Shown: positions 22,133-59,500 of the stretch, piece by piece
Layout of the letters: the number at the start of each line of letters is the position of its first letter
Numbering within the stretch: the first letter of the stretch is position 1
Source of the DNA: Apostichopus japonicus
Lineage: Eukaryota; Echinodermata; Holothuroidea; Aspidochirotida; Stichopodidae
Reading direction: 5' to 3'
Length of the DNA: 64,000 bases
Assembly (NCBI RefSeq): GCF_037975245.1
Contig: NC_092568.1
Location: 26,718,501-26,782,500 of the forward strand
The notes under the pieces: model-generated
Seen by the model: the letters and a program-made list of their open reading frames with translations, nothing else
Databases searched by the model: none
Told to the model about the DNA's origin: nothing
Translations under genes and position numbers: made by a program

Positions 22133-25100
22133 TTACAGCCACATCTTAAACTTGAAGAAGTCCTGCAAATCTGGATCATCGACGCTTTTACGATTTACGC
22201 CAGCGTAGACGTTCTTCAAAAGCTCCGACTTAAACTTGCTGTCCAATATTTCTACATACTTTTCCAGGCATCCTGCAAAGAGAGAATATTAATTGACAGG
22301 TTGAGAGATGTCTATACAAAACGAAAATTTTTGTTTTGTTTTGGACAGCAGCAGCAATTTTCCCTTTGCTGAAAGGAGACTAATGAGTGCATTCGACATA
22401 CAACAATACTTTCACTTTGACATACCTGACCAAATTTCTATTGTAGCAATTTTGCAATGGATCAATAATAGTAACAACAAAATTGAATCTACGGAAATCT
22501 GATTAGCAAATTATTAATGATGGTATTTAGCACTAAATTGCACCTGACAAGTTTGGTTGACATCAGTGCAAACCATCTCCATGTTAAAGCATCATACTCA
22601 TTACAAATTTAAAAAATGAAATCAGTTCATTTCATTAGTAGTATAACATAACACTAGGGTTGAACTCACAAATTATGCAAAGCTTGTTAAATCTACTTCT
22701 GAAGTACTGTAGGCTGAAACTTACTGGCGATACTTGTTTTCAAAGGGTTTGCAGAATTTTTTTATGGGTTCAGTGTTGTGTGCATTAATTCATCAAACTA
22801 ATAAAAAAAAGTGGAAAGTTTGTGCTGATGTCCTTTCAGAGCAATGGATCAATCAAGCAGTATACATAAAGTGCTGATATCATGGAACACTCCAAAAGCG
22901 CCTTGAAAGAGAAAGGTTTTAAGGTGTTTCTTCAAACTGTTAAGTGAGTGGTAATGTCTGAGTTCATGTGGCATGGAATTCCATAAACGAGGGCCAAGTC
23001 TAGAGAAAGCAGGACCACCACGACCACTGTATCTATTGAATTTGAAGCAAGGCTCAATAAGGAGATTATCACGTTGAGAGCGGAGAGAACGAGTTGGCTC
23101 GTAAGGGGAAATGAGATCACACAAATATTGAGGTGTTTGCCCATGAAGGGCCTTCCAAGTCAGCAAAAGAATTTTGTAGTTGATTCTTTATTGAATTGGA
23201 AGCCCTGTGAAGGTGATATAGAGCGTCAGTAAAGAATGCAAACACCAGAAACTCACCTAGTCCCATGACCCTACCCCAGGCAATCATATGTCTCTCTAGT
23301 CTGGAGTCATCAAACTGTTCCTGCTTCATCAAGATCCTGACGATCTCTCCGTGGAGGTAGGCATCATCAAAGGTTGATTCTTCCTTGAAAGGATATTTAG
23401 CATAAACATCTACTGCTTTGAGAGGCTCTGTCTTGAGCAGACTGTCAGCCAACTCAATGTACGCATCGTGAACCTTACAGGGAAACAACAAAAGCAGAGT
23501 AGGTTACAAGAGTGTTTACCAAACTTTGAATAATTGTATCCTGCTCACTACATTGTATGCCACTTTAGCATTAGAAAATAATACCTATACGCTTTCAGAA
23601 AACGTAGTCTGCTACTCATTCCCGAGTGGATAAAGTTGCCAGTTATAGCACTGACCTAATCCAGGCTAGTCATGTTAGTCACACACAATGGACGGGAAAA
23701 GGTGCTTATGTGGTACCTTAAAACAAGCATATTGAAACTTGAATCAATAAGGATCGCTGATAAACCCAAACATTCTGATCTCACACAATCATGAAGTTGA
23801 GATGGGCAAATAGCTGCGAAAGAGACCTTCTTTTGGCATCGAATATGATGATTAGGTTCAATAACACATAATCATCACATTGTTAAAACTTTGTCAAAGT
23901 TTCAAGATTTTTTAAGCTTCAGTTCTTCCAGTTGATCAGAGTACCCAGACTATAAGATGAAAAACATCTTTTGGGTGGCTTTTTATAAAGTGTTTAACGG
24001 CAGGAATTTATTACCTGTGGTGCCATAATGATGACATCACCGTACAACAGCTGTGGCTCCTTAAAATCTTCAGTTTCCTTACAGAGTGCTCTAGCGAGAC
24101 CCAATCGTGCAGGATAAGTCATCCTATTGAGTGGTGCGTTAGCAGGTACGGGAGTTGATTGAGGCTTGGCATCTGAAAGAGAGACAGTAAGGTATTGGCC
24201 AGGCACTTAAAAGGGTGTGCAGACTTGCCCACAAAGAAACATCTAATGCCGGTAATCTGACCTAGTTTCGAATGAGGTGTAAGAGAAGTGTTAGACACCA
24301 CCATGGATCCCAGAAAATACACACACAGCTTGCTACCGTCAATATAATTAGACACTAGTGTACAGGCAGTACACATACAGCTGTGGTCAATACCCACAGC
24401 ACAGTGTATTAACGATACAGCGATGGACATCTCAGGTCCAGCTAAAGATAACAAGGTATTGCGTTGCATTACTGTTTGCATTTTGTACAAAAACGAACAA
24501 ACCGTCACTTGCAAGCAACAGAAAGTTAACTTTTTCAGATGGCCACATGCAGTTTGGGGCAGGTCTTCAATGCCTTAATGATACCTTAATAACTCCATCT
24601 GTATAGCATTATAATATATGCATTTTCCTGTAATGTTACTGTTATGTATGGGCAGCTTTGGTATCTCCTTCACAAGATAAGTTGTTTTGTCCTTTGTGCT
24701 GAACAAAGTTCTTTTTTGTTGTTGTGAATATTATTAAAATTTAATTTACACAAGAATGCAAATAAAAGACAAAGGCGAGACAGCTGAAATTTTTTTAAAT
24801 TCTTGCAAGTGTGACAAAGGTGGGAAGGGATATCACTCACAGTCATTTGGTTTTTGAAAACGTTTTTCTGTAGATTCAAATTCCATATAACCTTCTTATT
24901 TGCTGTGGCTAGGTCAGTTTGCTTCAAGCATTACATAAAACATTTAATCAATGCAACAATTTTCAGAATATTTAATCTCCATCCTTTATTGATTGAAGAG
25001 ATACATGGATCCATTTCAGCAAAAGACTAGTTGAATAAGAAATATAAGCAAACTCACGTTTATTGATCGCAAAGTAACAGACTACACTAATAAGACGCTT

Positions 25101-28100
25101 ACCTTCAGGGGCTGGTTTTTTAGCCTCATCTGTAGCAGGCAGCTCCTTCTTCTTAGCCGATGTGGTCATCTTTGGCTGGCTTCCTCCTCTACTTACAGGG
25201 GTACCTTGAGCTGGAGCTGAGGTCTTCCCTCTCACAGGCTTAGCTGCTGCACCACCTCTTATTGCACCACCTCTTGTTGCACCACGCGAGGAACCTCTGA
25301 CTGGTGTTTTAGCTTTAACAAGAATAATCGATAATTGTTTTGACAAGTTGATATCTTATTAGAGATGTCTTATTAGAGGGCCTTGTGGAAGATAAGCTAT
25401 TGCTAAACGAGCTACCCTCTTAAAATAAAGTTTAAATAAAAAATAAAAATATCACAAAACACCGAACAGAAAAGTAGACATATTATCATATTTTAGTTGC
25501 ATAATGCAATACAGTTCTCTTTACAAACAAAGCACAAATTGTCAAGAGTGTAAACATTTTTTAAACAATTAAACTCTAAGCTCCTCTATTCCTAGCACAG
25601 CTTCTCCTTGTCTTACATTCTTTGTCCTTTCCTCACTTTGTCTTAAGGTTACATTAACTATTTTATATGTTTCATAAACTCTCCAGTATTAAAATATATA
25701 TATTGAGAAGAAAAAAGAAGCAATATGGCGACCTTTCCCTATCTACTCTCCTGTTTCTTTTCACAAAAAGGGGGGCTTTAAACAGTAGAGATATGATTTG
25801 ATCTTGAGTATGTTAGGGGTGGAAGTTGAATATCTGCATTTGTTCTACCTCCTTGTAATATGAGTGACAGTTTCTCTGCTTTCACAGGTCATACCTGCTG
25901 TTGCGCCTCTGGCGGCACCACCTGTGCCCCTGGTACCCCTGTTGGTTGGGGTACCTCTGCTTGCAGGTGCACCTCTCTTTGTATTGGATGGTAACCCTGT
26001 ACTTCCTTTACTTTTATCAGCTGCTCCAATCTTCTTGTCAGATTCCTCTTTTTTCAATCTCTCCTGCCACCATTCCTGTTCTGTAATAATATAATAGTAA
26101 CAGATGGTCTATTCTCAAGTGACATTTATCACAGGCTTGGAGTGACCATATAAAACAGTTTTCTGAGTTGATATTGTTTTATTTGTTTTGATGCTAGTCC
26201 CATAACAACATAGTTACGTAACTCGCCTAATCAAGTTTCATATCGAGGTCAAATGGTCGAGTGAAAGTTGAAAATGATGGAACTTTTCCAAGTTAATAAT
26301 ACAAGTGATTAATACTAATAGGACAGGCCATTGCAAGAATGTCTGGGTGACAAAATATTCAGTATCACATGAGATCATTAAGTACTAAGGTTTTGATCTG
26401 ACCAATCACCAAACTTATTTTGACTACTCTGCAGTTGGTTTATTAACAATTTCAAAACACTGCTAAATAAAACCAGAATATTGGAACTGTCATAACAATT
26501 GAATCATTTTTATTAGAAAGTATGATTTGCATCACTGATACCTTCAAATAGATCCTATTCTAGCCCCAACTACTGATAAAAAACAAAAAGCATTGATTAT
26601 ATAAGGGCCAAAAACTGACAGATTTAAGTCATTTGAGTTACTCTCAAATCTCACACCTCAAAATGCAATATACCAATTTGAAGTTTTATAGCAGCTGTGT
26701 TTGCAATGTAATCCCCCTCCCCCCTTCCCCTCCTTATTCTTTACTCCACATATGTACCTGAGTATAAAATGTATGTTAAATGTTGTGTGACAGCAGATTT
26801 ACATCTAAATCAATTATTTTGGGGGAAAAATTGGGATAATTGGTGCCCCAAACTTATTTTGCAACATTTTTTATCATTATAACACATATTCATGTGTAAT
26901 ACTGTCATTGTGTATGGTCCCTGGAGCTAATTATGAAACCCTGATTTCTACATTAAAATAAAACTTACTAATCAGCTGTGTTGGGATATCTCCTCCAACT
27001 AAAAGCTTACTTGTCACATGTTTTGGGATATCTCTTCTAATTATAGCTTACTTGTCAGCTGTCCTGGAATAGCCCCCTCCCCCCAATCCCCTCCCCCCAA
27101 TCCCCTCCCCCCAATCCACCCCAAATAAAGAATTTGCTTTTCAGATGTTCTGGAATAGCCCCCTCAAATAATAACTTACTTGTCACCTGTTATGGGATAT
27201 CTTCTCTAGTTACAACTTACTACTTAAATTAAACGAGACTTAGAATCAGTTGCAGTTTGATTTGGATTCTACCTACTCATCACACAAACAGATGGAATAC
27301 CAATGTGTAGTGTGATGAGTGGGTAGAAGAACATCTCCTCTAATAAGAACTTCCTTTGAGATGTGTCCTCTCTAGAGCAATGTGTCCTCTCAGATTTCGA
27401 ATAAATGGAGGAAAAAAATATTTTGTCACAATAAAATTTTGTTAATACGTAACGGCAGTTTGTACACGATGTAGTGGAGTTCAACGCAATCACAAATATT
27501 CTTATTTGTTTCAATCGAAAGTTTGGCGAAGATAGAAGTTATGTAACCGATATCAAACAAGAATAGGGTGATAGAGGACACATTGCTCTACTCCGTGATG
27601 TGTGTCGCACTACCTAACTATATTTATTACTAAAGATAATTTATTTTAAACATTTCGTTAGTACGTAACGGCAGTTTGTACACGATGTAGCGGAATGTTT
27701 AGAATAATAAAGAAGTTATGTAACCGATATCAAACATTAAAAGAGTGCTAGAAGGGACTCTTCTCTGTCTCGTTATTGCATATTGCACTTCTTATCTATT
27801 CCTGTAAGAAAGATTATTAATTATAAACATTTCATTATTTTGATGAATTGTCTTAAATTTGATGTACAAACAATTATTGAGTACCACTGCACCTTCACCG
27901 TTGCTTATTGTCCGCTAGATAATTGATGGCGCTCTCCGCTTTTCTCCTTGTTGTCTGCTCTTATTGTCCACTACTAATGTCCGCTACTAATGTCCGCTAC
28001 CTTCAAGCAGGTACCTGTTTTGGGATATCTCCTCTAGTTACAACTTACTTGACAGCTGTCCTGGAACATCTCCTCCAATAAGAACTTGCTTTTCAAGATG

Positions 28101-31100
28101 TTCTGGAATAGCTCCCTCAAAGTATAACTTATTTGTGAGTTCAATCTCTTAATCTAACTTACTTGTCAGCTGTCCTGGAATATCACCTCCAATGCTTGGT
28201 TTTCCTTCTTGAGCTATGCTTGCTCTGAAGGAGAGTATAGCATCTGCCAATCCCTTCTTCCCCTCGTCTGTGTTGGGAGCATTCTCATACATAGCTAATT
28301 GAGAGTTACCCAGCAGGTACAAAGCATAGCTATTGGTTGGTTGGGCTATAACACCTTTTTGACAGGTCTGAAGGACAGGAATTGTTAAAGATATGGTTGT
28401 AAGACTTCATGCTTACTAGAATTCAGAAAGTTTAGGGATTTTAACATGAAATAAACCAGTAAAACTATCTCATTTGAAGTACTCTGGCAATCTCCCTCCA
28501 TGGAGGGTATTTATTGCTATGGTAACGGCAATAATATTGTGCCACTCACATCTCACTAATACACAGAAGCTGTCTGAAATGAAAATCTAAGAGTGAGGGG
28601 TGTGATAGTAGGACACTGGTCTAAAATTATATTGAAAGAAGGGATATAAAGTGCCCTTTTAGAATTTTTTGACAGTCACCATTATATGAAATTTAAAAAA
28701 TATCACTGTTAATACTATTTTCTAGCAAAATTGGCTTGTCTGTTATCTTGATATAGAATACTGCTGAGGACTAATATTCTAGTGTTAACACTAAATGTAA
28801 CACTACAAAAAAGTCTGACAATCCAAACTATGTTTTTTCCCTACAGATCGATAAATCCTTATAATTTTAAAATTTCAGACTTACAACCTCTTCAGTCGTT
28901 GGAAATGACACCAGCTCTCTTTCAGAACATGTGACATGCTATGAATGACAAGTCACACAATTAAAGCATATTGAAATAATTGATAACCACATGCATAATT
29001 CTCCAACATAGAATATAACACAGATGGAGGCATATCTTTGATATCTCGTCAGGGATTTGTGATGTATCTTACCTTCTCTTGTAGTTCGAGAACCTCTCGA
29101 CTTTGCGGAATGATCGATGCTTGGATGATGGAAGATATGTAGCGGCATCTCTTGGAGATCCACTGAGCATTGCCAACCTCTTCTTCCATCATCATCTCCA
29201 AGAGATTGGTGTGAGCATCCAGGAGCAGCCACTGCATCGACTCGTACGTGTCCCCTCGATGAACCAGTCCACAGATGTTCTGAGAGGCCAGCAGACTGGC
29301 ACTGAAGTAGAAAAAAGGATGAGATATAGAAAGAAGATTAGAACAGGACTCAGGAGAACTGCTATTTGACAAGATTATCATTACTTACTTCTGCAAGTAT
29401 TTGACAGGTTGAAATGTAAGGCAGTCATGTGTATCATGAAGCTTGTCATATTCAGCAATGCCGCGAAAATATTAATCTATAGGGACAGAGAGAGGTCAGC
29501 TAAGAGACGCAGACTTTGGTATTCTTTAAATTTACAAAAGAGATTTTTTGTAGCATTATAGATATATTTTAACAGTTTATTTATTGGGAATAAGAAGAGA
29601 AAATTTAGGAAAAGGAAACTGTAAAACCATTATTACAGTATAAGTAAGGTCTTGGTGAACCTCACATTATGGAAACAAACAGAGTACTAAAGTTTGTCCA
29701 ATGAACACCAAATACACAGGAAATACACTGCAAATTAATAATGGTTTAAGAAGAAAGTCAAATCTTCTGCAGTGTCGGTCATCAAAATAAAAAAAAATAA
29801 AAAAAATACATAGGAAATGCACTACGAATTAATAGTGTTTTAAGAAGAAAATCAAATCTAGCATTAGTCATCCAAATATACAACATTTCATGAAGCTTTA
29901 TTGGTCAAACAATGTACCAAACCTCTCCTAAGATTGTGCAATTTACCTATGGAAAGCTTGTTTTGGTGAGATAAGTTTTTCCTGTGGAGATTTCAAGAGA
30001 AGTTTTCCAAGGTGAATAAAGGCCCTCAAGAGATGACTGTTGGTGGGTCGAAGCATATCCTCAGCATCCAGGTCTGAAATACTGTTCCGATAAAGTTGAA
30101 AATGGATTAAATTTGCAAAACAGTTAAGAAGTATCATCCTAATTTTCAATAACTGTGCAATATTTAAGACCAGTAATAAGGACAAAAATTGCATATTCAA
30201 GCATGAAAGCTAACATTTCTATCCAATTTTTACGAAGAGTAAACAATATGAATTATTTGCATTATGGAAACTGGTTGTGGACTACATTTATCCACCCATT
30301 GCCACCCTTTTGAGTATTTTTAACAAACTTACCTGCTAGGAGATTTTTCCTCCGCTCTTAAGATAGACAATCCTAAGATGTGTTCCACACCATCATGGAG
30401 GTAGTGTATAGCCTCTTTCAGTCTCTTACCCGGCCTCTCCATTTGCATTGATAATGCTAGTCCGAGGTACAGTCTACATGACAAAAGGAGAATAAGAGAA
30501 GATAAAACATATTAATGTTTCATCAATTTTATTTTAGCTGTATTGAGGATTTCAACATTAGTCACATACCAAACTTGATTGTTAGACCAAGCCTATTCAT
30601 CCACCCACCCATGTAAACCAACTTGCTCACTCTCACCCACCCCCCTCCCCCACCCCAGCCCTGATTAAAATATAACAGAAACATATATAGAATGATGCAT
30701 TCAAACCACACACCCCTGGAAACTGAGTCCTATTCCCCCAATCACCCAAGGAAAAATTATGAACAATAGCTTGAATGTGACCAAGTCCTGCACCCACCCA
30801 CCCACCCACCCACCCACTCACCCAGCAAAGGTGGAAACAACTTATATTACAACACAAGAAGAAAGTATTAAAGTCAGATAAGCAACCAAGTCAGGCCAAT
30901 CTTACTTAATAAAGTTAGAAAATAAAATTAAGCAACACCTTTGTCTGTACGACATACAGACAAAGAATACAGAATTCTGTAACATGAAAGGCCAATGGAG
31001 AATAATAAGTATTATACTGCTATTCTCCAATAGCTTTTAGAAGGTATAACCAAACATGCCTCTATATAGTTCATGACGTACATGACGTCATCGCATAAGA

Positions 31101-34100
31101 CTTTATACAGCAAAGTAAGACAGTATGGCAAGATGTGTGATTAAAACAAAAATAAGAAATACAACTAAGTGTTCTAAGTAGTTTACCCAGTTACCTTACA
31201 ATCGCCATAACAGGCTTTATGCTTAATGCAACCTGAAATCTCTCTATGGCTTCGGCTAACTTTCCTTGCAGTAGGAGCACTCTGCCGGTATGAAGGTTAT
31301 AGGTGAGGTTGTTTTGCTGGAGAGATAATGCATCCATGTACTTGAGACAAGCCTTACCCAGCGGAGTCTCCTGATCGGAGGCGGCTTGAGCCGCCTTACC
31401 ATCCTACCGAGAAATATATGAAAGGAGGACATAGCGAATAAAATGAGAAATCAAAATACGGAATGCTCAAATTTGTGTAAAAGCTAGACAAAATATGTAT
31501 ACATCATAGATGAAGAGGTTAAAGGAAGAGTTAAGATCCATCATGACATAGGGATTCTACAGTCTACACAATGGACATCAATAATTAGCTATGCTTCAGT
31601 ATTTACAGTAGTATGCTTCAGTATTTATAGTGAGAAATCAAAATACGGAATGCTCAAATTTGTGTAAAAGCTAGACAAAATATGTATACATCATAGATGA
31701 AAAGGTTAAAGAAAGAGTTAAGATTCAGCATGACATAGGGATTCTATAGTCTACACATTGGACATCAATAATTAGCTATGCTTCAGTATTTATTGTAACT
31801 GATGATCAAATCAATTAATTTTATCTAGCAATTACCGTGTTGCTATGTAAACCGATTATCATAAACCCATCCCGTTTGGTTGGACATAAAATCTACGAGA
31901 TATATTCCAAATTTATTCTTTTGTGAATTCTTTATACTTGAAATTTAACAGATAGCAGATCTGTTTAATTTCAGTATGGTGCATCATCTTTCTTTTCGAT
32001 TGATTAAAACCTAGATCTGTAGCACTTAAAGGAAATATTAAATAGCCTACTAGCTCACACTGGCTGTAGATGAAACGTACAAGTAGATAAACTAACCTGA
32101 GTGGCTTGCTTTGATTTCCAGACATAGAGCCCCTGGACGTAATCAGCCTTCCCGGACTGACCAGAATCCAATAGGAATCGATATTCCTCATCTAGAGCCT
32201 GGAGTTGTCTGGAGAGGGATGGATTTGACCCACCTCCTCTTTGCTGACAGATGGCTTGAATGTCATCCTCTTTGGACGACTCCTTGGCGTTTGAATCCAG
32301 AGAAAGATCAGCAAACCCTTCATCAATGTCATCACTCTTTAGAAGGCAAATTAAAAGGTATAAAATAAGCAATATATGATTCAGAAAAGTTTCTTCTGTT
32401 GAACATGTTAAATAATGATGAAACACTGAAAGACAATGCATATATTAGAATATGTTGAAGAGATGAATAGTGTGCATCACCAACATTTGAAAATTATGTC
32501 ATCTCCATTACAGCAAACAAGCACAAGGAATGAATAAAAAAAAAATGAAATTCAGGAATTAGTCTCACCAGTTTAATATCTACTTCCACCTTCAATAATG
32601 TAATATCTTAATCAAGTCATCACAGAGCCCATTGAGATATGGAGGGGGCTTAGAGAATAATGGATGAAGAATGGTGTATTTCTCATATTCATATTACTCA
32701 AGGAAAGGTGAAGAGGGCCAAAATGGGCCCGGTGACGTACTTGCTTGACATGAATTCTATAAAGTGTCAGATATGATAATCTGTAATGAATTGCAATATC
32801 TTTTTTCTCAAAAAATTGCATTAAATTTGTGCTTCCTTTCCTTTTCTATTCATTAGAAGTGAAAAACAAAACCCCATCTGTACTGATTACCTCTTTTGCA
32901 ATGCCAAACAAGTCCTTGGCACAGTACTGTTCTTCAAGCACTAATCCTAACTCATAGTGCAGCTTAGGATCCTTTGGGTTCTGTTTAATAGCACATGAGA
33001 TATTAACAGCTGCATCATGTAGGAAGTCTACTGGTGAACTCCCTGAGGCAAACTTCTTGGTTTGACCTTGAGGGTAAAAAAAAAAAAATAATCATGACAT
33101 ATGATAATGACATTTGTTCACATCCATCAATAACATAATTATTATTGCTTTATGCATGAATTTTACAAACTGATATTAGTTTTACATGATGCTTTATACC
33201 CTCCCCCTCATTCACCCCCTCCATCTGAAACCTGTCAGACATGGGTAAAATTATAAATAAAATTTAATTTTAATAGAAAGAGACATAATGAAATATATTT
33301 AAAATTATTTCTACATTTGTATTAATTTTTGTTTTGTGGAACAGCACTTGGAGAGACATGTCTGTTTTGAAACTGTAGTATACTACATAGTACATAAATA
33401 TTTATTTATTGCATTCAGATAAAATTTATTTTCAAACAATGCTTTGAGGTTACCTTTCTTTGGCAGGGCATCTCTGTATTTCTTACATAACTGTTTAGCA
33501 TTTTTCATCAAGGTTTCAACATTTTCAACTATTCCTGTCTCCTGCAGCTTTTTCTGCCAACTGTGTTCCTATTGTAGGATTGAAAAAACAAAAGTAGGTA
33601 AAACAAAAGTAGGAAAAAACAAAGGATGAATGGTTATAGGAGAAAATTGAAAGAAAACAACGTAACTGCTATGTGAGCTGGAGATGATCACCTTCAAGCA
33701 TAAATAGTTGAACTTGTTTTTAAAACATTGCCTTTTCAACAACAAAAAAAAATGTAATTGCTTTGTATGTTTCGAATGGGTAGTAGTATCATTGAAGTGT
33801 TTGATGTTAATAATGTGGTACAACAAACAATTAATAATGTTATTGCAAATTCTCTCAATGTTACCACGTTGTAGTAAAAATGGCATACAAACATCACATA
33901 TAAAGTCTGCTGCCAAGTTGTTCTTATCACCTGTTTGTTCACAGATTCACAGGTTGCTAAGGTAGACTACAGTTATTCCACGATAAATAGTGGTTATCAG
34001 CTGTATCAGTTTCTGTAGTATGTTAATGTACCTGTTTTGTAAACCTATGCGGGCATGGCATTTAGAGCAAAACCTTGCAAAAAATGACACAGCTTCTATA

Positions 34101-37100
34101 TAGTCACACAGACAGAATTAAGTGCTGCACCAATAACCAGCAAGTTAACTGAAAGCGATGACATATCACATCAAATGACAAATGAAAGACCAGCACATAT
34201 ATGATTTTATTTCAATTTTTTTCCCTTTCATTTTCATGTAGTATATATTTAATACAGGGATACAGAATGTACTCTAATATTGACTATGATACATGCTGTG
34301 TAAGACCACTCAGCAGAACTCTGGCGGGAGAAATAACCCAAAGTTTTCATTTTTAATCAATATTCTCATGAAAATGCATATATAATGATTGAATGTGAGG
34401 TTCACTTTTTTTTTTTTCCCTTTTCTAACAGAGTAAAGACGGACAAGTGGAAAATGGGCACATTCGGGGGGGGGGGGGGGGTGTGAATTCCATTGATTGA
34501 AAAAATGTCAAGTTTCCTTACTTTCAGACTGTGTTTGATGTCTCTTCTGCTGTGCTTGCTACTACAGACATAATCCTTATGCCAATCTTCCTCGCCCTTG
34601 ACAAACTTGCAGCTACACTCCTTACACGAAATAGTGTCCTAGAATATCAGAAACAAACAAATAAGACAATTCAGCAACAATTTTTTAATAACTCGTAACA
34701 TCTGCCGATCATAAACATGGACAGGTAGAAATATTATCAGGGAAGAGAAAGGTAAACATGAATAGATCCCGCCACTTCCTGACGTAGGAACTGTAAATAG
34801 TATTTTACAAGAGAAAAATTTCAGAGTATGCAAAACTGTTACACAAAATTTCAACACTACATTATTCCTTTAATATGGGCATAAATGGTAGTAATTAGGG
34901 CAATCAGTATTTTATTAATCATAAGTTGCATGTAAAAAGATGAAATATGGCTTCACCTCTCTGTCCTCTAGAACCTTGGGTCTGAAGGTGCACTGCTGTA
35001 TATGACTACCAAGTAAACTGTACTTTATCCTCTCCGAGCAGCCTGTAAGATCAAAATTAGACCAATTAAACATGTAAATTTTACACTTTGTGAACTCTAT
35101 AAATGTTTACTCTTTCACCAACGAAATACAGTACTTATGCAAATTTGGATAAACATATATACTGTGAGTCTCGTAAACTAGGATGTGACACCGTTCAAAT
35201 CTCTGTAAATGTTGGAAACAAATTTTCCCTTAGGGTGTTAGTAAAGACTTCTAATGTCTGAATCAAAGATTTTCTTTATTATAGGTATAAGGATTACAGC
35301 TTTTATGTGTTTTCAATACAACTGGTATGTGTTTAGAATTATCAATTATGTTAAACACATTTGCATGTGCTTCCAGCTTGATGAGCTAAAGTATCTTTAA
35401 AGGCTTTCCTAGGGGAGATGGAGCCTTGGAGAATATATCAAAGCATATATATCGGCAACAGGAAAACTAACTGGGAAATCATAAACAAATTTGAAAATAG
35501 CAAAACAACTTTTGCTGGAACAGGATGCAAGCCAATCGATTCTGTATTGTTAGATTTAGAGTGAAATACAAGTTATACTGTTATAAGTGAGAAATGAGAA
35601 ATAAACATAAACTCAAATCGATTAAATTCATCAAAAATACTAATGATAAAATGTAAAAATAAATCGTATGCCCTTTTCCTTCCTTCTTGTTTGTCTTCTC
35701 CTATCTCTGCTGCTGCTTCTGGGCACAATTAAACCTGAGAGCAGCTTTATTCATTTCTAAATTTGTAGACTGATATTTCAAAACAGATGAATATCAAACG
35801 CTCTGCCTTTATCAGTAATTAAGGCTTTAATTAACAAAGTGCATTTTCATCCAAAGGGCACTCTACTTTAATGATACAGTGCTGAAGTGAGTAACAAATA
35901 ACACATTTATCTACCTTAATATTAGCATTGGGAGTTTTCAGTTCTTAAACTAAATATTATCTTTTTCGTAAATAGATATGAGGACTCAGTTACAACTCGC
36001 AAAAGAGAGTACTATCAACACATTTTTTAAGTGCAGTTAAAAAACCTACGGAAAGGAGTGTACTTAAACTGTTATATTGTTCTTTGATACACATTGAGTC
36101 ATTGAGCATTTTACTAACTTATAGTTTCGAAAATGCTTAAAAGCAGGTAACTGTAAAGCAAAGATTCCTTATAATTCCTGGTATGTTTTTGCTTGATGAC
36201 CCTAAATTTCACTTTCATCATCTTCACGACCCTCCAGTGTTCATCGTTGTGGGTTTGGGAAGGGGCCTACAGGGAGCAGTTATCCCCATCCCCTGTGAGA
36301 ATTTTTTTATACAATTAAGGGTACTTAGTTGCAAATTGAAGTTATATATTTTTCAAGCCTTTGATATAATTTATGTTTAAGATATTCCCACTCCCCCTCC
36401 CCCAATTATAAAATATGGGTCACCACCCCCATTTTGAACACCAGGGCTTTCAAATGAGCAAGCAAAGGTTGTCGCTCAATATATTGCATTGGTGAAAAAA
36501 CAAATATCATGTTTTATGCTCTTCAAAAGATATATGAAACAATAAATATATATATATTGAATTCATTTTATTCAACTTAATTTTATACATATTGCATTAA
36601 GCAACAGAATATGTATACTGATCAAATCACATTATTTAGTTATTTAATTTAATGATATTCATTTAGTTGACTGATGGCACTCCACAAATACATCTAATAT
36701 ACTATCGTACTAAATCTTGTTTAAGAACAACAAACAAATTGTCAGTGGCGGAGCGTCCATACAGTCAGGGGGGCGGATGCCCCCGCCTGACGGACTCAAA
36801 TGGACTGCTGGCGCCCTTTTCAGCTCTTTACCACTTTTTACTTATTCGCGATTATTGACTATTTTATTGCGCTCTCATCTACCTATTGACATTTGTCACA
36901 TTTTGTTGGTGTAATTTGGCGATGACACCTATTTATTCTTCGTTTATTTGCCAATTAGCCAGGCCCGGTAAGAGTCATTTCCGGTGATCTAGGGAATATC
37001 TTTACTCAATTTTTGTTTGTACGCTACGCGCCAACCTGTGGTGGCGCTCCGCTTAAATAGTGTCAAAAGCGCCCCTACAGATCATTCTCGTGTTTCTGCG

Positions 37101-40100
37101 GGCTGCATCTACTGCCGATTTCTTGGGACTTGCTGGTTTTTATACACATCTATCAAGCCTTTATGATACCATCTGGAGATGAGTAATCAGTTACTTACCT
37201 CTGTGTGAGAAAAGACATAAAACAACTACAGCTGACATCTCTGTCTCTAGACCATTTTCGCCAACTTTCCAGTCACCCTCCAGGACTGAACTGTCAAGAG
37301 GGTCTTGTTTACATGTCCTTGTCAGCTCTTCGATGATTGGTTCGCTGAAGACGTGCTTGGGATCGGAGCCAGCAATACTCAGAGGTCTGTAACATGGAGC
37401 TAGACTGACAGGACATTCAAATCTTGTTTGGTGTTCTCTATCTGCAAACTCTACAGCATGACCTAACCATTGTTTCAGTAAAGTCACAGAATAAACCTAA
37501 ACCAAACAGAACAGAAAAAAATAGTTAAAAATCCTGATTTTGTGGAAAATGGTGTAGAATTTATTTATGCATCACAACCTGGAAATTAAAAAAATAAAAG
37601 TAATTTAAATTAAGAAGTAATATAAATTTGATGGGATCTACAAGGATAATTTTAAATATTTATCACATAATGAAGATTCCTCTGTAGCTACTATTTCTCA
37701 CATAAAACAGTTTACATTAATCACTATGCTCTCAGGCTTTCCAATTACAATTTTTTTTTATGTTTTATTTATTCACTTTTCCATTGCATTTTGGAAGAGG
37801 AAAGACAAGCATTGGCTAGAAACAGTTAGGATATGAATCACTGGTACAAATTCCATTCTATCCCAATCATTAGTGATGACTTTTAAAGTTAATTAGCAAA
37901 CACAATTTTAGAATTACTATCGTACTGATTTTGTTGAGCCATCAGCTGAGGTTACTTCCAGGTTCACAGGGGTTTGACCAATATTAAGACTGATTTCTGC
38001 TAAGCTGGGGTCTTGACCATTCACTGTTACAGCTGTCTTCTTATCCAGTACTGATGGAGTTATCTTCATGGAACTTAAATGGTAAGGGACAGTGCCTTGA
38101 AAACAAAATGAGAGAATATATGTAAATGATGCATAATTTACACAAAACATGACACTATGAATGTTGCTTGTACTTCTACAAGAGACATCTAGTAAGATCA
38201 CCACAACAATATGCCACTATAGAGCCTTTTACACAATTATTTCCTTCCTTTGACACCTGTGGAATTAATTGCCACGTCATTGATAAAGACATTTTTTCAT
38301 GTTTAATTCCCATCAAATTTGGGACTTTCAACTTACTGGCTTTGTGAGCATATAGTATGAGAAGGTGTGTCACTTGCTTGGATTGCACAACAGACAGGAT
38401 ATATAGATAATGTCTGAATGAATTTGAAAATTCCATCTCTTGTATATGAAATAATAAAATAAAGAAAACACATTTATTAACAGGTAGGATATTATTAATC
38501 TTCCCACTTATGTATACCTTTATATCTTTTGTGTGGTAATAATATTCCTCGCTAGTGGCGTTGCCAAGGGGTGACCTGGATGTGGGGGTCACATGCCCTC
38601 CCCCAAAATAACCAGATAGCACCAAATTGCATCTTTAGACCCTTAATTATTTAAAACCATTATCCAAGCAAAAGGGTTAATTTCCATTTTTGTATAACTT
38701 TCTTATCTGCCTCAATTAAAAACATGAATATCGGACAGACTAAGCCTGAAAACTCTTATACATAAAGTTACTTCAATTTGCAAAATATAGCACCGGATTG
38801 TATCTAAGGACCCTTAATTAATTGCCCCCTACCCTAAGATCCCTCCCCCACGATGACATTCAAAAATAACATTGTGCCCCCCTAATTAAGTGCTGTGTCC
38901 TCCCTGTGCCCCCCAAGATTGAAATGTCTGGCGATGCCACTGTTCCTCGCAAGGCTTATTTTGACCTAAATTGATGGTTAAAGCAACAAGCAAACTTTCA
39001 TACGGAAGAGAGTGATTATTTGTTTTTATCCTTACAAGTATAAAGCAATTGACTGGCATCAAATACTGGTACTAATTCTCCAACAGACAGCTGGATTCCA
39101 CTGAGTGTAGCATCGCTAGCTGACAGTCTCTTGGCATCAATCTGGTAAATTTTAGTAGTACCATCTTCTGCAGTCACCTCAATCTTTATGACAGTGGTGT
39201 TTCCCTCCTTAAGGGATATACTCCTTCCACCATCATGATGCTAGGAATGAGCAAATTTGAACATAAAAACAGTCAATACAGTTTTCAACTTTTTCAAAAT
39301 TGTGCCAATATTCTTCCATTAAAGCTTCGTGCCTAATTTCTGACCAACCTGTTTTCCCCTTTTGCAATCCTTGTATATTATACCTCCATTCAGCATAGAG
39401 TAAGCCTACTCTACCATCCTCCCTAGACCTAGCTATTCCATCTTCAGTCTCTTTTCTCTTCATGGGCACTTCTTCTTACAACTGGTCCATGACAGAAAAC
39501 CAAGATACAGAGGCAACGATAGACAACAAATTGTCAAGTGGGAGCCTGTGAATACTCATTACTTCTCAATTCCTCACGTACCAATCTAACTTCTTGAGAT
39601 TGAGAGGTTGTAGTCTCCCACTTTCAGTCATCAATTTTGTATAGGCCTAGCTGCTACCACTTTGGACATCTGATTGGAAGTGTTATACCTCCTCCCATTT
39701 GCCATTTATGTAACATTAGCTGACATTGCTAATCTATAGCTGGTTTGTTAGGCCGAAGTTGGTTAAAGTACACTTACTTTTACTTTAGGCTGTTAGGCTA
39801 GCTATAGGCCTGACAGAACTTTATGAACAATTAGCCTTGGCTCAATTTTAAATTGATATTAGGATTCAAAGTCTGTAGTGTAGTCTAACAAAGTAACCGT
39901 GACTGTGAGGGATAGGCTCACGCCCTAGCCTGGCGTATATAACTTCTAACGAGTAACGTTATACTGCTAGGCGATATCGTAACTCATGTGCTTACTAAAA
40001 TTTGAGTTGAAGCATTGCTGTCACTTGTGAAGTAATCCAATGTCAACTTGTCAACATTACTTGCGACTGTTACTTTGTATTCAGTAACACTACGATCAAA

Positions 40101-40157
40101 TTTAGGTTTCAAAACGCCTGGTTTTATGGTTAACTTTTCAAGGTCAGCATCATCCAT
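22133..40157 (-). CDS. Large TPR protein with cadherin-like, U-box/TRAF-type zinc and RG-rich regions (unrecognised gene), 19 coding exons
   Basis: Exons are 40157-39996, 39240-39036, 38095-37926, 37496-37199, 35042-34957, 34638-34522, 33568-33454, 33066-32891, 32336-32097, 31403-31195, 30473-30333, 30081-29947, 29301-29073, 28367-28163, 26080-25895, 25312-25103, 24172-24015, 23473-23257 and 22272-22133. They total 3399 nt, 1132 residues plus TAA, with all phases consistent. An in-frame TGA (40181-40179) lies eight codons before the ATG. There is no signal peptide, so it is probably cytosolic. Residues 1-90 and about 95-180 are two cadherin-like beta-sandwich repeats (Pfam PF12733 type). Residues 180-278 hold a U-box/RING-like part starting RFECPVSLAPC. 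Then comes C-x6-C-x11-H-x3-C, a TRAF-type zinc-finger pattern (CSERIKYSLLGSHIQQC), and a second Cys/His cluster (SCKECSCKFVKGEEDWHKD) at about 308-346. Residues 347-830 are helical TPR repeats, clearest at NLTYNLHTGRVLLLQGKLAE. Residues 850-945 are an RG/TRG-rich basic linker. Residues 965-1132 form a compact domain (VYAKYPFKEESTFDDAYLHG). An E3-ligase-like scaffold is a guess from the domain order, not shown. Confidence 0.9.
22849..23190 (-). mobile_element. Non-LTR retrotransposon fragment (C-terminal end of ORF2)
   Basis: An open frame of about 105 codons reads LTWKALHGQTPQYLCDLI, PYEPTRSLRS and LGPRLWNSMPHELR. This is the familiar C-terminal tail of LINE reverse-transcriptase proteins of the CR1/L2/Rex type. 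It is truncated at its 5' side and sits between exons 18 and 19 of the TPR gene, in the same orientation. Confidence 0.85.
24215..24590 (-). repeat. Dispersed repeat, copy B (inverted relative to copy A)
   Basis: It is the reverse complement of 20395-20770, with shared blocks CATCTCAGGTCCAGCTAAAG and AGTGTTAGACACCACCAT. It lies in the intron between TPR-gene exons 16 and 17. Confidence 0.75.
26964..27225. repeat. 41-42 bp units resembling the exon 14 donor region of the TPR gene
   Basis: At least five units start with CTTACT-like blocks (26964, 27006, 27047 and others). On the minus strand they read GGAGATATCCCA..ACAGCTGACAAGTAAG, matching the end of exon 14 (GGTGATATTCCAGGACAGCT) plus its donor GTAAGT. 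The array continues at 28010-28200 after about 780 bp of other sequence. A C-rich CCCCTCCCCCCAAT triple lies inside at about 27068-27118. Confidence 0.8.
27430..27860. repeat. Tandem duplication, about 216 bp unit
   Basis: AACGGCAGTTTGTACACGAT at 27451 recurs at 27667, and GTTATGTAACCGATATCAAA recurs 3' of each copy. The duplication splits the exon-14-like array. Confidence 0.8.
28010..28200. repeat. Exon 14 donor-like units next to the true exon
   Basis: On the minus strand, downstream of the real donor (28162-28161), a close copy at about 28080-28042 reads GGAGATGTTCCAGGACAGCT and then CAAGTAAGTT. Two weaker units lie around it. The real exon end is the rightmost member of the array. Confidence 0.85.
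30792..30818. repeat. (CCCA)n microsatellite
   Basis: Six to seven CCCA units in the intron between TPR-gene exons 10 and 11. Confidence 0.85.
31443..31800. repeat. Tandem duplication, about 187 bp unit
   Basis: GAGAAATCAAAATACGGAAT at 31445 recurs at 31632. The two copies agree over most of their length, with a few substitutions (GAAGAGG versus GAAAAGG). It lies in the intron between TPR-gene exons 9 and 10. Confidence 0.9.
36739..37082. mobile_element. Non-autonomous element with CAGTGGCGGAGCG end
   Basis: The left end CAGTGGCGGAGCG is followed by a G-rich hairpin (CAGGGGGGCGGATGCCCCC). The right part carries the core TACGCTACGCGCCAAC then GGTGGCGCTCCGCTTA shared with three other places in the window (51270, 54851, 56069). 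No clear target duplication was found, so the ends are approximate. It lies in the intron between TPR-gene exons 4 and 5. Confidence 0.6.
38553..38942. mobile_element. hAT-like MITE with 8-bp target duplication TTCCTCGC
   Basis: The left end is TAGTGGCGTTGCCAAGGGG and the right end GTCTGGCGATGCCACTG, which are imperfect inverted repeats. TTCCTCGC is present at 38545-38552 and again at 38943-38950. The element is 390 bp, has no coding capacity and contains AGCACCAAATTGCATCTTTA, also seen in the element near 48,950. It lies in the intron between TPR-gene exons 2 and 3. Confidence 0.9.
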
Positions 40158-46100: not shown

Positions 46101-49100
46101 GCTACATAAGAAACGTTGCAAAATCGCTTCATATGAAGTGTCGTAAAGACCTAACTCCGAATGCGACACTGTATAGGCCAGAGGTTCCCAACAGGCGGGC
46201 GTCGGGCCAAATCCAGCCTGCAAGAGGCCCCACGATCTGCACACAACCAAAATTTATCGGGCAGACGGGCCCTTAAGGCTTTAGCTTATATACTCAGTCC
46301 TGGCCTACTCGATGCACATCGCTCAATGTATATAGTTGTAATATAAATAATGGTTGTCCGGATACGATTAATGACGGAGAAATATTCACTGCGTTCACCA
46401 ATTTTCTGTTACAATTCCTAATTCAATCGGAAAATTCATAATTAAGCAATATGAAGGAAGAATTGAAAAGATATTCAATTAACTTTAAATTCTCTTTGGT
46501 TATGTACATATACAGCTCCGGTCGTCCACGTGCTCCTCAACGTGACAAATGGACGTATACTGACTCTCCTGGGAGGAATTCTCCTTGCCTTAGTTTATGT
46601 TCTTCAAGGAGGTATTCGATTAACATCTACATGGCAACTCTTTGGGCTGTTAATTTCATCCGGTTAGTATACATAACATATCAAAAGATATAGCTTCAAT
46701 TGTGAAACTTAATGAAGGTTATAACTCTTCCACTTGCAGTTGCTGTTAGAATACTCAAGGTTATCTGACATTGTTGCACTTGTCCATTCATTTGATACCA
46801 TGAGACAATCTAGGATTAAAGAAACAAAAGGAGTTGATATGGTCATGGGTTCGTTGAAGCCGACTCTTATACAGGGGGGTCTAGGAGACCGCTCCCACAC
46901 CATAAAATTTAGATTTGAAATGGTATACATTCTGAGGCATATGTATAGGCTATCAGTTAGGTACTCAATAAGGTATATAGCATGTACAGACAAGGGTTTG
47001 CTCATATACAACGTTCCCGTCTTTTTTGTGGGGTGTTTAAAAAAGGGGTGGATGTATACCCCACCTCCACTTGGATCCTAGTCAGCATACTATAAGCGTA
47101 AATACCCACTTATATACTAGATAGTCTAAAACAGTTTTCATAGTGAGTAATTTACCAATTATTTTTGTGAACTTTGTGTTTGGCAATAATTTGGATGATC
47201 AATGCATTCTGGGAGAGTACATACTTCCGGTAATAAGGGGCAAGGTTTTAAAGATCTGCTTTATTGGCTCCAATTATAACACGCTATATAGCTAGGAAAG
47301 TTTTGTGATTACGTAATCGACCTGCCACTATCGCAAATCGACCCAAGGCTCTACAATTAGCCTGCATAGCTTCTTAACACCATTAGGCTCTTTTTGTAAA
47401 CACTGTGTGGAACTATGTTCATGTCTACAGTGTAGTTAACCATAGAATGTTCACACATAGACCCTCATACAAGAAAAATATGTGGCAGGCGTTGCAGACT
47501 GATAAGTAAAAAGAGGTTATTTTACCACCAAGGCAGGTCGATAACGTAATCTCAAGAAACTTGTCCATGATAGCGTGCTATAGTTGGGGTCTATACAGCA
47601 GACCTTTAAGCTGTATAGGAATTAACTATTAGCTATCTTATTTGTTGTAACTTTGTTATAGGTTACGGGTGTATACTGAGAGGAGGTGTAAAACTCATTT
47701 GTTTGTTTTCTTTCTTCTGTTTTTGCATGCATGGGTTTTATCTCCTTCGTTTATCTCAAACTTCATTTTCGCAGCTAACATAATGTTGTAACTTGTAAAT
47801 TTGATTAATTAAACTTGTATCAACTTGTGAAAAACAAAAGAGATATCAATGATGGTTTAAAATCGTTCAAATATCTATCTCTCTCTCTCCACCTCTCTCG
47901 CCCCTCTATATTTTTTTCCTTAGGAATCGGACTTGGGTTGATCAACATGACCACAGTGGTGCCTTTAAAGGATTATTTCGGCAAAGAAGATTATCTCATG
48001 GCGTATTTGATGAGCACATTTTCTAACAATGTCGGTGTTGCATTACTTCCTTTACTATTGGAACACTTGATATCTATATTTGGCTATCAGATTGGGAAGT
48101 TCGCATATGGTTTTGTTACATCTGGTGCTATAATTATATCTCTGATTATACCCAGTCCTAAGCCCGCCACATTGAACGATGAATTTTCAGATACAGAAGT
48201 TAAGCCCGAAGAAAAGGAAACGTTGCCATTAATCGACGAAGATTCACAACTTCAATCGAGTTGTGACGATACGAACAAGTTTCTGGAATACGCACAACTA
48301 GTATATGAACTCTTTAAATGTCATCCGGATTTCTTCTTCTTACTTTTAACAGCTGTCTTTAACGACGTTCAGTACACAACTTGGTCGATGTTTCTAGTTC
48401 CGTATGGAGAGTTCTTTCAGTTACCCTCAGAAACAGCCGTTTTGTTATCTACTTTTGGAGGGGTGTCTGGAATTTTTGGAAGGGCTTTTGCAGTCTGTCT
48501 GATATATTTTGAGATTCATAATGTCATCATATTATTCGGTTTGCCATCTTTCCTTGTTACGATCGCTTACTTAATCAGTCTATTTTTCGGAGACTTCGTT
48601 AGTTTGGCGTTAGTTTCTTGCTTGAGTGGCTTCGGTATTAGTATGCATCTTGGCTTGTCTTACAGCATGCCACCTTTAACCGTATGCGAACATCACATGA
48701 ATACTGCTGTTGTACTGACGTTTATGGCGGGCGGGATATTTTATCAGCTGGGTGCAGTCATTGCAGGTGAGAATATACATTATGAACAATTCTTTATTTT
48801 GATCAATATATGTGACCATGCTGGCGCCCCCAGTGAAAAATATGGGGGGCGGAAGTATCATTCCGCCGCCCCCCCCCCGCTTCGCAAGTCAGAAAACCCC
48901 TTTTTCATTTCCAAATGAGAAAAAAATCTCATTTGGAGCACCAAATTGCATCTAAGTCCAGGTGAAAATGCAAAATTATTTACAAAATGGAGTGGGTGTT
49001 GAAGTGTTCTATATTGCACTAAATTGCATCTGAGGCCACCTGGAAATGCAAAAAAATTCCAAAGGGGGGGAGACACCCCCTTCCCGAGGCCGGCCATCAG

Positions 49101-55475: not shown

Positions 55476-56695
55476 TGTGTAGTGCTCGGTTTCGATATAC
55501 CTGATATCGGAGGAAATATCTGCTATTTTTCATTTCCTTCAACCAAGTTTCATAATAGCCATTATAACAGGTTGCAATATTTCTACACCAAGAAATTAAC
55601 TGTGTCGGAATTTTCCAAAATTTCCTACCCAACATTCTTCATCATACTTCCTCTACTCGTGCAATTTTGACCTGTATATTAGGGGTTCAAGGAGTTTTTC
55701 TATATTGGTTGTCCATAGATTGAATTTTCTGCAACATTATGGGTATGTTTTCAAGTGATTTTTATTCACGAGAAATGTGAATTTTCAAATTCTCAACAAA
55801 TAATGGGCTTAAAACCTTCAAAAGTGGGGCTTTCGGGTATTGTTGGCCGTGACGTAGAAACACCTACAAAAGCAATGATCCATAGGACATGCAATCAGGT
55901 CGAACATGATGTGTGACTGGTGACAATCTTCAAAAAGGTTATGGATGGAAAAAAACTTTTGGGAAATACTTGCTTCTCAGGCAAAAGTGTACATCTGGTT
56001 GCTCATTTTCAAGCCCGAGAAGTGCCATTTCCGGTGATCTGGGGGGTATCAAAACCAGAAATTTTCTTGTACGCTCCGCGCCAACCGATGGTGGCGCTCC
56101 GCTTAGATAGTAATTCGCGCCCCCCGGGTTAGAAAATCCTGGATACGCGCCTGTTATATGTTATACCAGGGATATGTAACCATACACCTATAAGATATCC
56201 CTGGTTAGGCTGGTTATACTAACACTATAAGTCGATACATCTGATCTTTCTCTTCGGGTTCGTAGTACGATATTGTTACGTATATGTTCTTACGAAGTTC
56301 AGAACAACGACTACCCGGCGTACTTTATAAACGTTTCAAAATCGTGTCCTATGGAGTGTCGCATATATAAACCGGAGAGCCAAGACCAGTCCTCGAGATG
56401 TTTTAATGGGGCCCACGATCTGCCCACAACCTAAACTTATCGGGCAGGCGGGCCCTTTAAGGCTTTAAAATACTCCCGGCCTACTCTTTGAACATTGCTC
56501 AATCAATAGTTTTAATATAAATACTGGTTGTCCGGATACGATTTATGAGAAATATTTACTGCATTCACCAATTTTCTATTAAAATTCCTAATTCAATCGG
56601 AAGATTCGTAATTAAGCAATATGAAGGAAGAATTGAAAAGATATTCAAGTATCTTTAAATTCTCTTTGGTTATGTACCTATACAGCTCCGTTCGT

Positions 56696-58050
56696 CTACG
56701 TGCTCCTCAATGTGACAAATGGACGTGTATACTGACTATCCTGGGAGGAATTCTCCTTGCCTCAGTTTATGTTCTTCAAGGAGGTATTCACTTAACATCT
56801 ACATGGCAACTCTTTGGGCTGTTAATTTCATCCGTTCAGTATAGAATATCAAAAGATATACCTTAAACTATGAAACTTAATGAAAGCAACTAATATGCTA
56901 GAAAGCATGACATAAAGACATCAAATGCTGTCTAAAAACATACCGTATTGCCTATTGTGTGTAATTTATTAATTTATTCTAGTAAACCAGTACATACCGG
57001 CAGAGTACAGTTGTGTCTTAAGTAAGTGACGAGATATTCCAACCGATTCACACAGAGATTACAGTAACTACTGTAAATCTTAAAGTTTTGTACCAGAGAA
57101 AAAAACTGGATCGTGTTTATACATATGATAAATTGGTGGCATGTGCTATTAGGATAACAGTAAGAACTGAGGATATGTGTAATCCCAACAAATGCATCAA
57201 ACTGGATTTGTTGGGGATTACACGTATCCTCAGTTCTTACTGTAATCGTAATAGCAAATGCTACTGATTTATAACACGATCCAGCTTTTACTTTGGTACA
57301 AAACCTTTTGCAGTTGTTTCTCAGGTGTTCTTGTGAGAAGCTGACCTTTAGCCCATCTTATTTTGTTGTAGGTTTGTTATATGTTATTTGTGTATATAAA
57401 AATGTACACACATTTTAATTGTTGGTATATGTTTTCTTATTTTCCTTCTCTTGTTCCTGCATGGGAATGTGTTATTATTATCTTGTGTTATTATTATATT
57501 CATGCTTTTACCAAATCCTATCCTCGCCGAATTTGTAAATGAATTTTCAGAAAGAGAATTTAACCCCAAGAAAATGAAACGTTGTAATTCATGGGAGAAG
57601 ATTTACGATTGTAATCGAGTTGTGATAACACTGAAGATGATACAAACAAGATTCTGGAATACACACAACTAATTTTTTCTTCTTACTTTTAACAAATGAT
57701 TTTATCGACGTGCAATACTCAAGTTGATCAATGTTTCTAGTTCCGTATGGAGAGTTCATTCAGTTACCCTCAGAAACCACCGTTTTGTTATCTACGTTTG
57801 GAGGGGCGTCTGGACTTTTTGGATCAATTCCTACAATCTGCCCGATTTATTTTGAGATTCACCACGTGATCATATTATTCGATTTGCCGTCTTTGCTTGT
57901 TACGGTCGCTTACGTCATTAGTCTATTTTTTCGAAGATTTCGTTTATTTGGCGTTAGTATTTTTTGCTCGAGTGGATTCGGTATTAGTATGCATCATGGC
58001 TTAATTGTCAATGCTATCGTTTTCGAAATCAGTTTGCAACCAAAGTAAAT
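56696..58050 (+). pseudogene. Broken copy of the monocarboxylate transporter-like gene
   Basis: 56696-56834 matches exon 2 of the intact gene but carries a 2-base insertion (GGACGTGTATAC for GGACGTATAC) that leads straight to a TGA, and its donor has lost a G. The first half of exon 3 (TM4-6) is missing. From about 57,500 the acidic loop and TM7-10 are recognisable (MFLVPYGEFIQLPSET; FGGASGLFGS; GFGISMHHGL), but a Trp codon has become TGA (57725-57727). Exon 3 is then joined directly to the end of exon 4 (FEISLQ) by deletion of intron 3 and TM11-12. No copy of the first coding exon was found. The gene cannot make a full transporter. Confidence 0.9.
57066..57322. repeat. Near-perfect hairpin of about 255 bp
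   Basis: The arms (57066-57185 and 57198-57322) share AGTAAGAACTGAGGATA, GTAATCCCAACAAAT, TGGATCGTGTT and TTTTGTACC in inverted orientation, with a loop of only about 10 bp. It is absent from the parent locus, so it is likely a small foldback MITE inserted after the duplication. Confidence 0.85.

Positions 58051-58099: not shown

Positions 58100-59500
<1,401 letters not shown>

Follow-up and report, generated by a model that had tools for sequence, protein, structure and literature searches.

Gene structure and genomic setting

The analysed stretch of DNA, hereafter the window, comprises 64,000 nucleotides of the Apostichopus japonicus genome and contains a gene on its minus strand that runs from the ATG at position 40157 to the last base of the stop codon at 22133. 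When the protein was assembled from the exons listed in an earlier note on this DNA, the 19 joined exons (3399 nt) gave 1132 codons, as that note had claimed, and one terminal stop, with a single open frame throughout and GT-AG ends at all 18 introns. Upstream of the ATG, an in-frame TGA is present at the eighth codon, and the first copy of the N-terminal cadherin-like domain (PF12733) is matched from profile position 2, suggesting that the N-terminus is probably complete. Exon 1 (39996..40157; all exons lie on the minus strand) carries the start codon and the first half of PF12733 domain 1, exon 2 (39036..39240) the remainder of this domain and the start of domain 2, and exon 3 (37926..38095) most of domain 2. 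Exon 4 (37199..37496; residues 180-278) encodes the end of domain 2, an entire RING-like or U-box-like domain and C273 of a first zinc finger, which is completed by C280, H292 and C296 in exon 5 (34957..35042). A second TRAF-type zinc finger motif in exon 6 (34522..34638) is followed by a linker in exon 7 (33454..33568), the first TPR in exon 8 (32891..33066), and an acidic linker and then a stretch without a family match in exon 9 (32097..32336). Exon 10 (31195..31403) encodes a canonical TPR that continues in exon 11 (30333..30473), and, after exons 12 (29947..30081) and 13 (29073..29301), another TPR is found in exon 14 (28163..28367). The RG-rich linker begins in exon 15 (25895..26080) and continues in exon 16 (25103..25312), while the C-terminal region begins in exon 17 (24015..24172), extends through exon 18 (23257..23473) and ends with the stop codon in exon 19 (22133..22272).

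The exon joins from exon 1 to exon 5 and between exons 10 and 11 are supported independently of the gene model, since protein domains cross them: PF12733 copy 1 lies over exons 1-2 and copy 2 over exons 2-3-4, the first zinc finger crosses the join of exons 4 and 5, and a TPR_11 match (residues 563-602) crosses that of exons 10 and 11. The end of the second sandwich, the RING-like domain and the first cysteine of the fingers all lie within exon 4, so the fusion of sandwich and RING-like domain is not an artefact of the gene model. In a leave-one-out test, in which codon usage was trained on the remaining 18 exons, the chosen frame was the best of six for 17 of the 19 exons and was not top-scoring for exons 5 and 13; the model being taken from the same gene, this is a check of internal consistency and not an outside test. 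At the level of sequence, the observation of a real eukaryotic gene is confirmed.

Other features were noted in the window. Two duplicated blocks, the longest of four matches found on comparing 44-52 kb with 52-64 kb, lie at 46226-46716 and 56409-56884 (87.9% identity) and at 48120-48656 and 57480-58002 (75.9% identity). An open frame at 47809-48915 matches MFS_1 (4.1e-15), and since the second block overlaps it, a transporter gene seems to be partly duplicated. Another open frame, at 59041-59361, matches GIY-YIG (3.8e-5; 24.3 bits, cut-off 22.6) and may derive from a Penelope-like element. Within intron 18, a 112-aa open frame (22852-23187, minus strand) gave no Pfam match at 0.01; it resembles the end of a LINE reverse-transcriptase ORF.

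Alternative exons and the integrity of the gene model

From exon 5 to exon 10 and from exon 11 to exon 19, the support for the joins consists of splice sites, phase and coding score. These joins, together with the frames of exons 5 and 13, which did not score best, speak for an alternative in which the gene model is partly wrong, either because an N-terminal gene with the sandwiches, RING-like domain and fingers was joined to a separate TPR/RG/C-terminal gene or because exons are missing or alternative. We scanned the 18 introns for cassette exons that were phase-compatible, had a donor with at least five of six letters and passed a pyrimidine filter, with at most two shown per intron, and found at least 10 candidates. 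The top candidate (score 10.4) and the second (6.4, intron 16) cannot be dismissed by score alone, because accepted exons range from 2.5 to 44.7; the better of the two, however, lies in intron 14 within a stretch that is repeated. Against a faulty model there also stand the 18 GT-AG introns with their single open frame, the domains crossing the joins named above and exon 4, which links sandwich 2 to the RING-like domain. On balance we consider a partly wrong model improbable and retain the single 19-exon gene.

At the end of exon 14 and in intron 14 (28192-26961, minus strand), the final 30 nt of this exon together with its 5' splice site occur seven times, the real site included. The occurrences are equal at 28 to 38 of 38 positions, and six of the seven retain gtaag; elsewhere in the window no occurrence reached 24 or more equal positions (shuffled mean 0.0). 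The decoy donor sites of intron 14 may alter its splicing. In intron 12, an 88-nt stretch (29476-29389, minus strand) runs from a tatag acceptor to a gtaagt donor and would be a poison exon if ever used, because a stop is reached at the ninth codon when it is read from exon 12.

The protein begins with two PF12733 domains and appears to be encoded by a single-copy gene

The two tandem cadherin-like domains that had been read from the letters proved significant when scanned apart (E 3.3e-14, 53.5 bits; and 8e-15, 55.5 bits), both exceeding the curated cut-off of 24.2 bits and covering positions 2-88 (copy 1) and 4-86 (copy 2) of the 89-position profile. Aligned over 88 columns, the copies share 32% identity (pairwise E 7e-10), which suggests an internal duplication. 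Matches of the sandwich pieces to DUF3509, DUF5110, DUF7489, DUF5018 and DUF6242 were under their cut-offs and were set aside.

PF12733 is otherwise known chiefly from bacterial surface proteins, a point made in the earlier note and one that speaks for an extracellular or surface adhesion protein. Against this, a Kyte-Doolittle scan of the whole protein found neither a hydrophobic N-terminus nor a membrane-like stretch, the highest 19-residue mean (1.66) falling inside a TPR, and TPRs, RG-rich linkers and RING-like modules are typically intracellular parts. The intracellular look ascribed to the protein is thus plausible, and we regard an adhesion protein as very improbable indeed.

A six-frame search of the genome (671.6 Mb, 35 contigs) with the whole protein, at an E limit of 0.01, gave 19 matches, one per exon and all at this locus; the counts are lower bounds, with all 21 candidates scored. 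No second copy was found by this search, and the gene is apparently single-copy in its genome. With the PF12733 profile, exon 3 was the only match above the cut-off in the genome (E up to 0.001, among four candidates), and no match was obtained in 14 control genomes; this search runs exon by exon and missed exon 2, so that split domains elsewhere may be missed too. Close-relative searches with single sequences returned no relative in virus contigs (pieces of 188 and 332 aa) or, for an 816-aa piece, in a genome contig collection of prokaryote and virus sets.

A zinc-poor RING-like domain is followed by two TRAF-type zinc finger motifs

The segment behind the sandwiches had been described as a U-box-like CPV segment. 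A likeness to RING and U-box domains was recovered, with the RING of TRAF6 as the closest match found: residues 180-346 matched TRAF6 chains comprising the RING and first zinc finger (5vnz, 4.4e-6; 5vo0, 2.3e-5) and, more distantly, TRAF5 (0.14), whereas the reversed piece had four matches within an E limit of 10, none better than 0.26. The TRAF6 match covers residues 191-299, that is, the RING and the first zinc finger, and 33 of 103 positions are identical in the 5vnz alignment. U-box, RING and zf-TRAF were not among the Pfam matches listed for the 167-aa and 74-aa pieces at E up to 10, a scan in which HMMER filters may conceal very weak U-box matches. A match to NME5 over the RING-like region (0.0076 in a PDB search at E up to 1; 0.011 with residues 180-346) lies in strength between the best reversed control and TRAF6; NME5 is not known to have a RING, and we judged the match to be chance, as we did antibody light-chain matches (0.12 and weaker). 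A single-sequence structure model of exon 4 alone was unusable (pLDDT 49.5).

A TRAF-type RING finger has eight cross-brace zinc ligands. On the TRAF6 alignment, three of them are retained (C207, H227 and D247), and the other five positions hold S210, P225, S230, I233 and D244. The aligned TRAF6 chain is presumably the construct of the study of ubiquitin contacts considered here. We set the zebrafish TRAF6 numbering as chain position + 49, which agrees with the residues that this study names (I, L, V-D-N and both R; PMC5702613). According to the study, a TRAF6 I72/L74 double mutant shows no interaction with Ubc13, and R126 of the linker and R147 of ZF1 contact ubiquitin (PMC5702613). In the present protein, V209 and L211 stand where TRAF6 has I72 and L74, and P245 preserves the loop-2 proline, so the residue types at these E2-contact positions are retained; the positions of R126 and R147 are T264 and S287. 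With few zinc ligands left but the E2-contact residue types retained, the domain looks U-box-like in kind. TRAF6-type activity may be lost, because five of the eight RING ligands are replaced and both ubiquitin-contact arginines are absent, and the loss of the arginines is evidence against a TRAF6-like mode in particular.

The C-x6-C-x11-H-x3-C finger of TRAF type named in the earlier note is present as C273-x6-C280-x11-H292-x3-C296, and all four ligands align with those of TRAF6 ZF1. A second intact motif had been overlooked, C312-x2-C315-x11-H327-x4-C332, encoded by exon 6, so that at the level of motifs two TRAF-type fingers stand behind the RING-like domain. In the finger piece, FlhC (best value 0.02) and Sina_ZnF (best value 0.038) stayed under their cut-offs and were set aside. 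The zinc-binding fold expected at residues 180-346 is possible for the fingers and hardly so for the RING-like part, given its five replaced ligands, although a single zinc could still be bound there by H227, C241 and D247, perhaps with D224.

These residues bear directly on whether the RING-like domain would be active. In one reading, with the same gene and fold, it is a dead pseudo-RING and the protein an adaptor built on TPRs and zinc fingers, scaffolding a complex but without ligase activity. The three remaining ligands of eight, the loss of both ubiquitin-contact arginines and the lack of a Pfam RING or U-box among the matches listed all favour such an adaptor, while the residue types kept at V209, L211 and P245 argue the other way, and U-boxes are active although they lack zinc ligands. 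We take the adaptor to be a possible reading, albeit a somewhat doubtful one.

TPRs, an RG-rich linker and a helical C-terminus

The TPRs reported from the letters were recovered in the whole protein, where TPR_11 scored 41 bits (cut-off 26.8) and TPR_17 34.9 bits (cut-off 24.4), with a TPR_17 match at residues 410-431 (exon 8). Another TPR_17 match lies at about residues 763-786 (exon 14). When the two TPR pieces were scanned apart, TPR_11 scored 20 and 26.6 and TPR_17 17.2 and 25, so that one of the four piecewise scores was above its cut-off (25 against 24.4). A crude motif scan with TPR consensus letters found one strong repeat at residue 556 (score 10.2; 0.04 expected per shuffle at 10 or more) and, at 8 or more, three repeats against 1.75 expected. 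Five families were listed in NCBIfam, every one of TPR type and far under its curated cut-off. The linker at residues 831-965 contains 11 RG and merits the description RG-rich. The matches and motifs together reproduce the order that had been proposed, from the sandwiches through the CPV segment, finger and TPRs to the RG linker.

The last 171 residues, which to the earlier note looked like a conserved domain of their own, matched no Pfam family and no PDB sequence better than 0.39. Exon 18 alone was predicted to be all-helical, with four helices modelled at modest confidence (mean pLDDT 72.1), so that a conserved domain here is no more than putative. Of the 193 PDB matches that Foldseek returned for this model with E up to 10, none had a value of 0.001 or less; among the best 50 of the 193, the first was a TPR structure (E 1.1) and many were other helical proteins. 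Because no Foldseek match was significant, the description is limited to helical and TPR-like at best, and the model suggests a C-terminal end that is helical and possibly TPR-like.

Comparison with known families

Like TRAF6, the protein has a RING-type domain, then a TRAF-type finger, then a second finger. Unlike TRAFs, it retains three of the eight RING ligands, lacks the ubiquitin-contact arginines of TRAF6, and carries sandwiches in front and TPRs behind, and MATH/TRAF-C is absent from the eight Pfam families listed for the whole protein. TPRs and a zinc-poor RING-like domain within one protein recall CHIP/STUB1, described in PMC4017836 as having three TPRs, a central coiled coil and a C-terminal U-box. 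The order of TPRs and U-box is, however, reversed here, sandwiches, zinc fingers, an RG linker and a C-terminal region are added, and the 24 PDB sequences that matched with E up to 1 do not include CHIP. Judged by its domains, the protein thus fits neither a TRAF, in view of the lost RING ligands and the lack of a MATH match, nor a CHIP, in view of the other order and the lack of a U-box profile match.

Two further proteins share single features. CPED1, a named vertebrate gene that occurs in the literature together with the terms cadherin-like and PC-esterase domain, carries PF12733; no PC-esterase was among the eight families listed for the present protein, and the architecture is otherwise unrelated. 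LONRF1-3 are intracellular proteins with RING, TPR and LON domains and thus likewise combine a RING-type domain and TPRs; no LON match was listed in the Pfam scans of this protein, and LONRF1-3 are not known to have cadherin-like domains. The domains found do not fit either CPED1 or LONRF. No paper on this architecture was found by title in the open-licence literature, which is weak evidence. Compared with Pfam, NCBIfam, PDB and the prokaryote and virus sets, the protein is a new combination of known parts; that it is undescribed, as the earlier note had supposed, is unproven.

Proposed function and significance

We consider a ubiquitin-linked TPR scaffold the likeliest reading of the protein, which would then be an E3 or else an inactive adaptor. 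An intracellular location, E2 binding, ligase activity and clients are what we infer for it. The N-terminal pair of PF12733 beta-sandwiches would hold a partner, and the RING-derived domain, U-box-like with most zinc ligands gone, would dock an E2 via V209, L211 and P245. Behind it, the pair of TRAF-type fingers would stabilise the RING-derived module or bind ubiquitin or partners. The recruitment of clients or RNA-protein complexes to be ubiquitylated would fall to the TPR solenoid, the RG-rich linker and the helical C-terminus. That this apparently single-copy gene encodes such a soluble, probably intracellular scaffold of the ubiquitin system, docking an E2, recruiting clients and acting as a ligase, seems to us an even prospect.

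Tentatively, the protein may represent an unnamed eukaryotic family in which tandem PF12733 domains serve as an intracellular substrate or partner module before a zinc-poor RING, two TRAF-type fingers and a client-binding half of TPRs and RG linker. If this family is real, a beta-sandwich of bacterial style would form part of a ubiquitin-linked scaffold in eukaryotes, and the protein would offer a natural test of how a RING can persist once its zinc sites are lost while the zinc fingers next to it stay intact. Since no paralogue was found in the genome, the gene would be a simple knock-out target.
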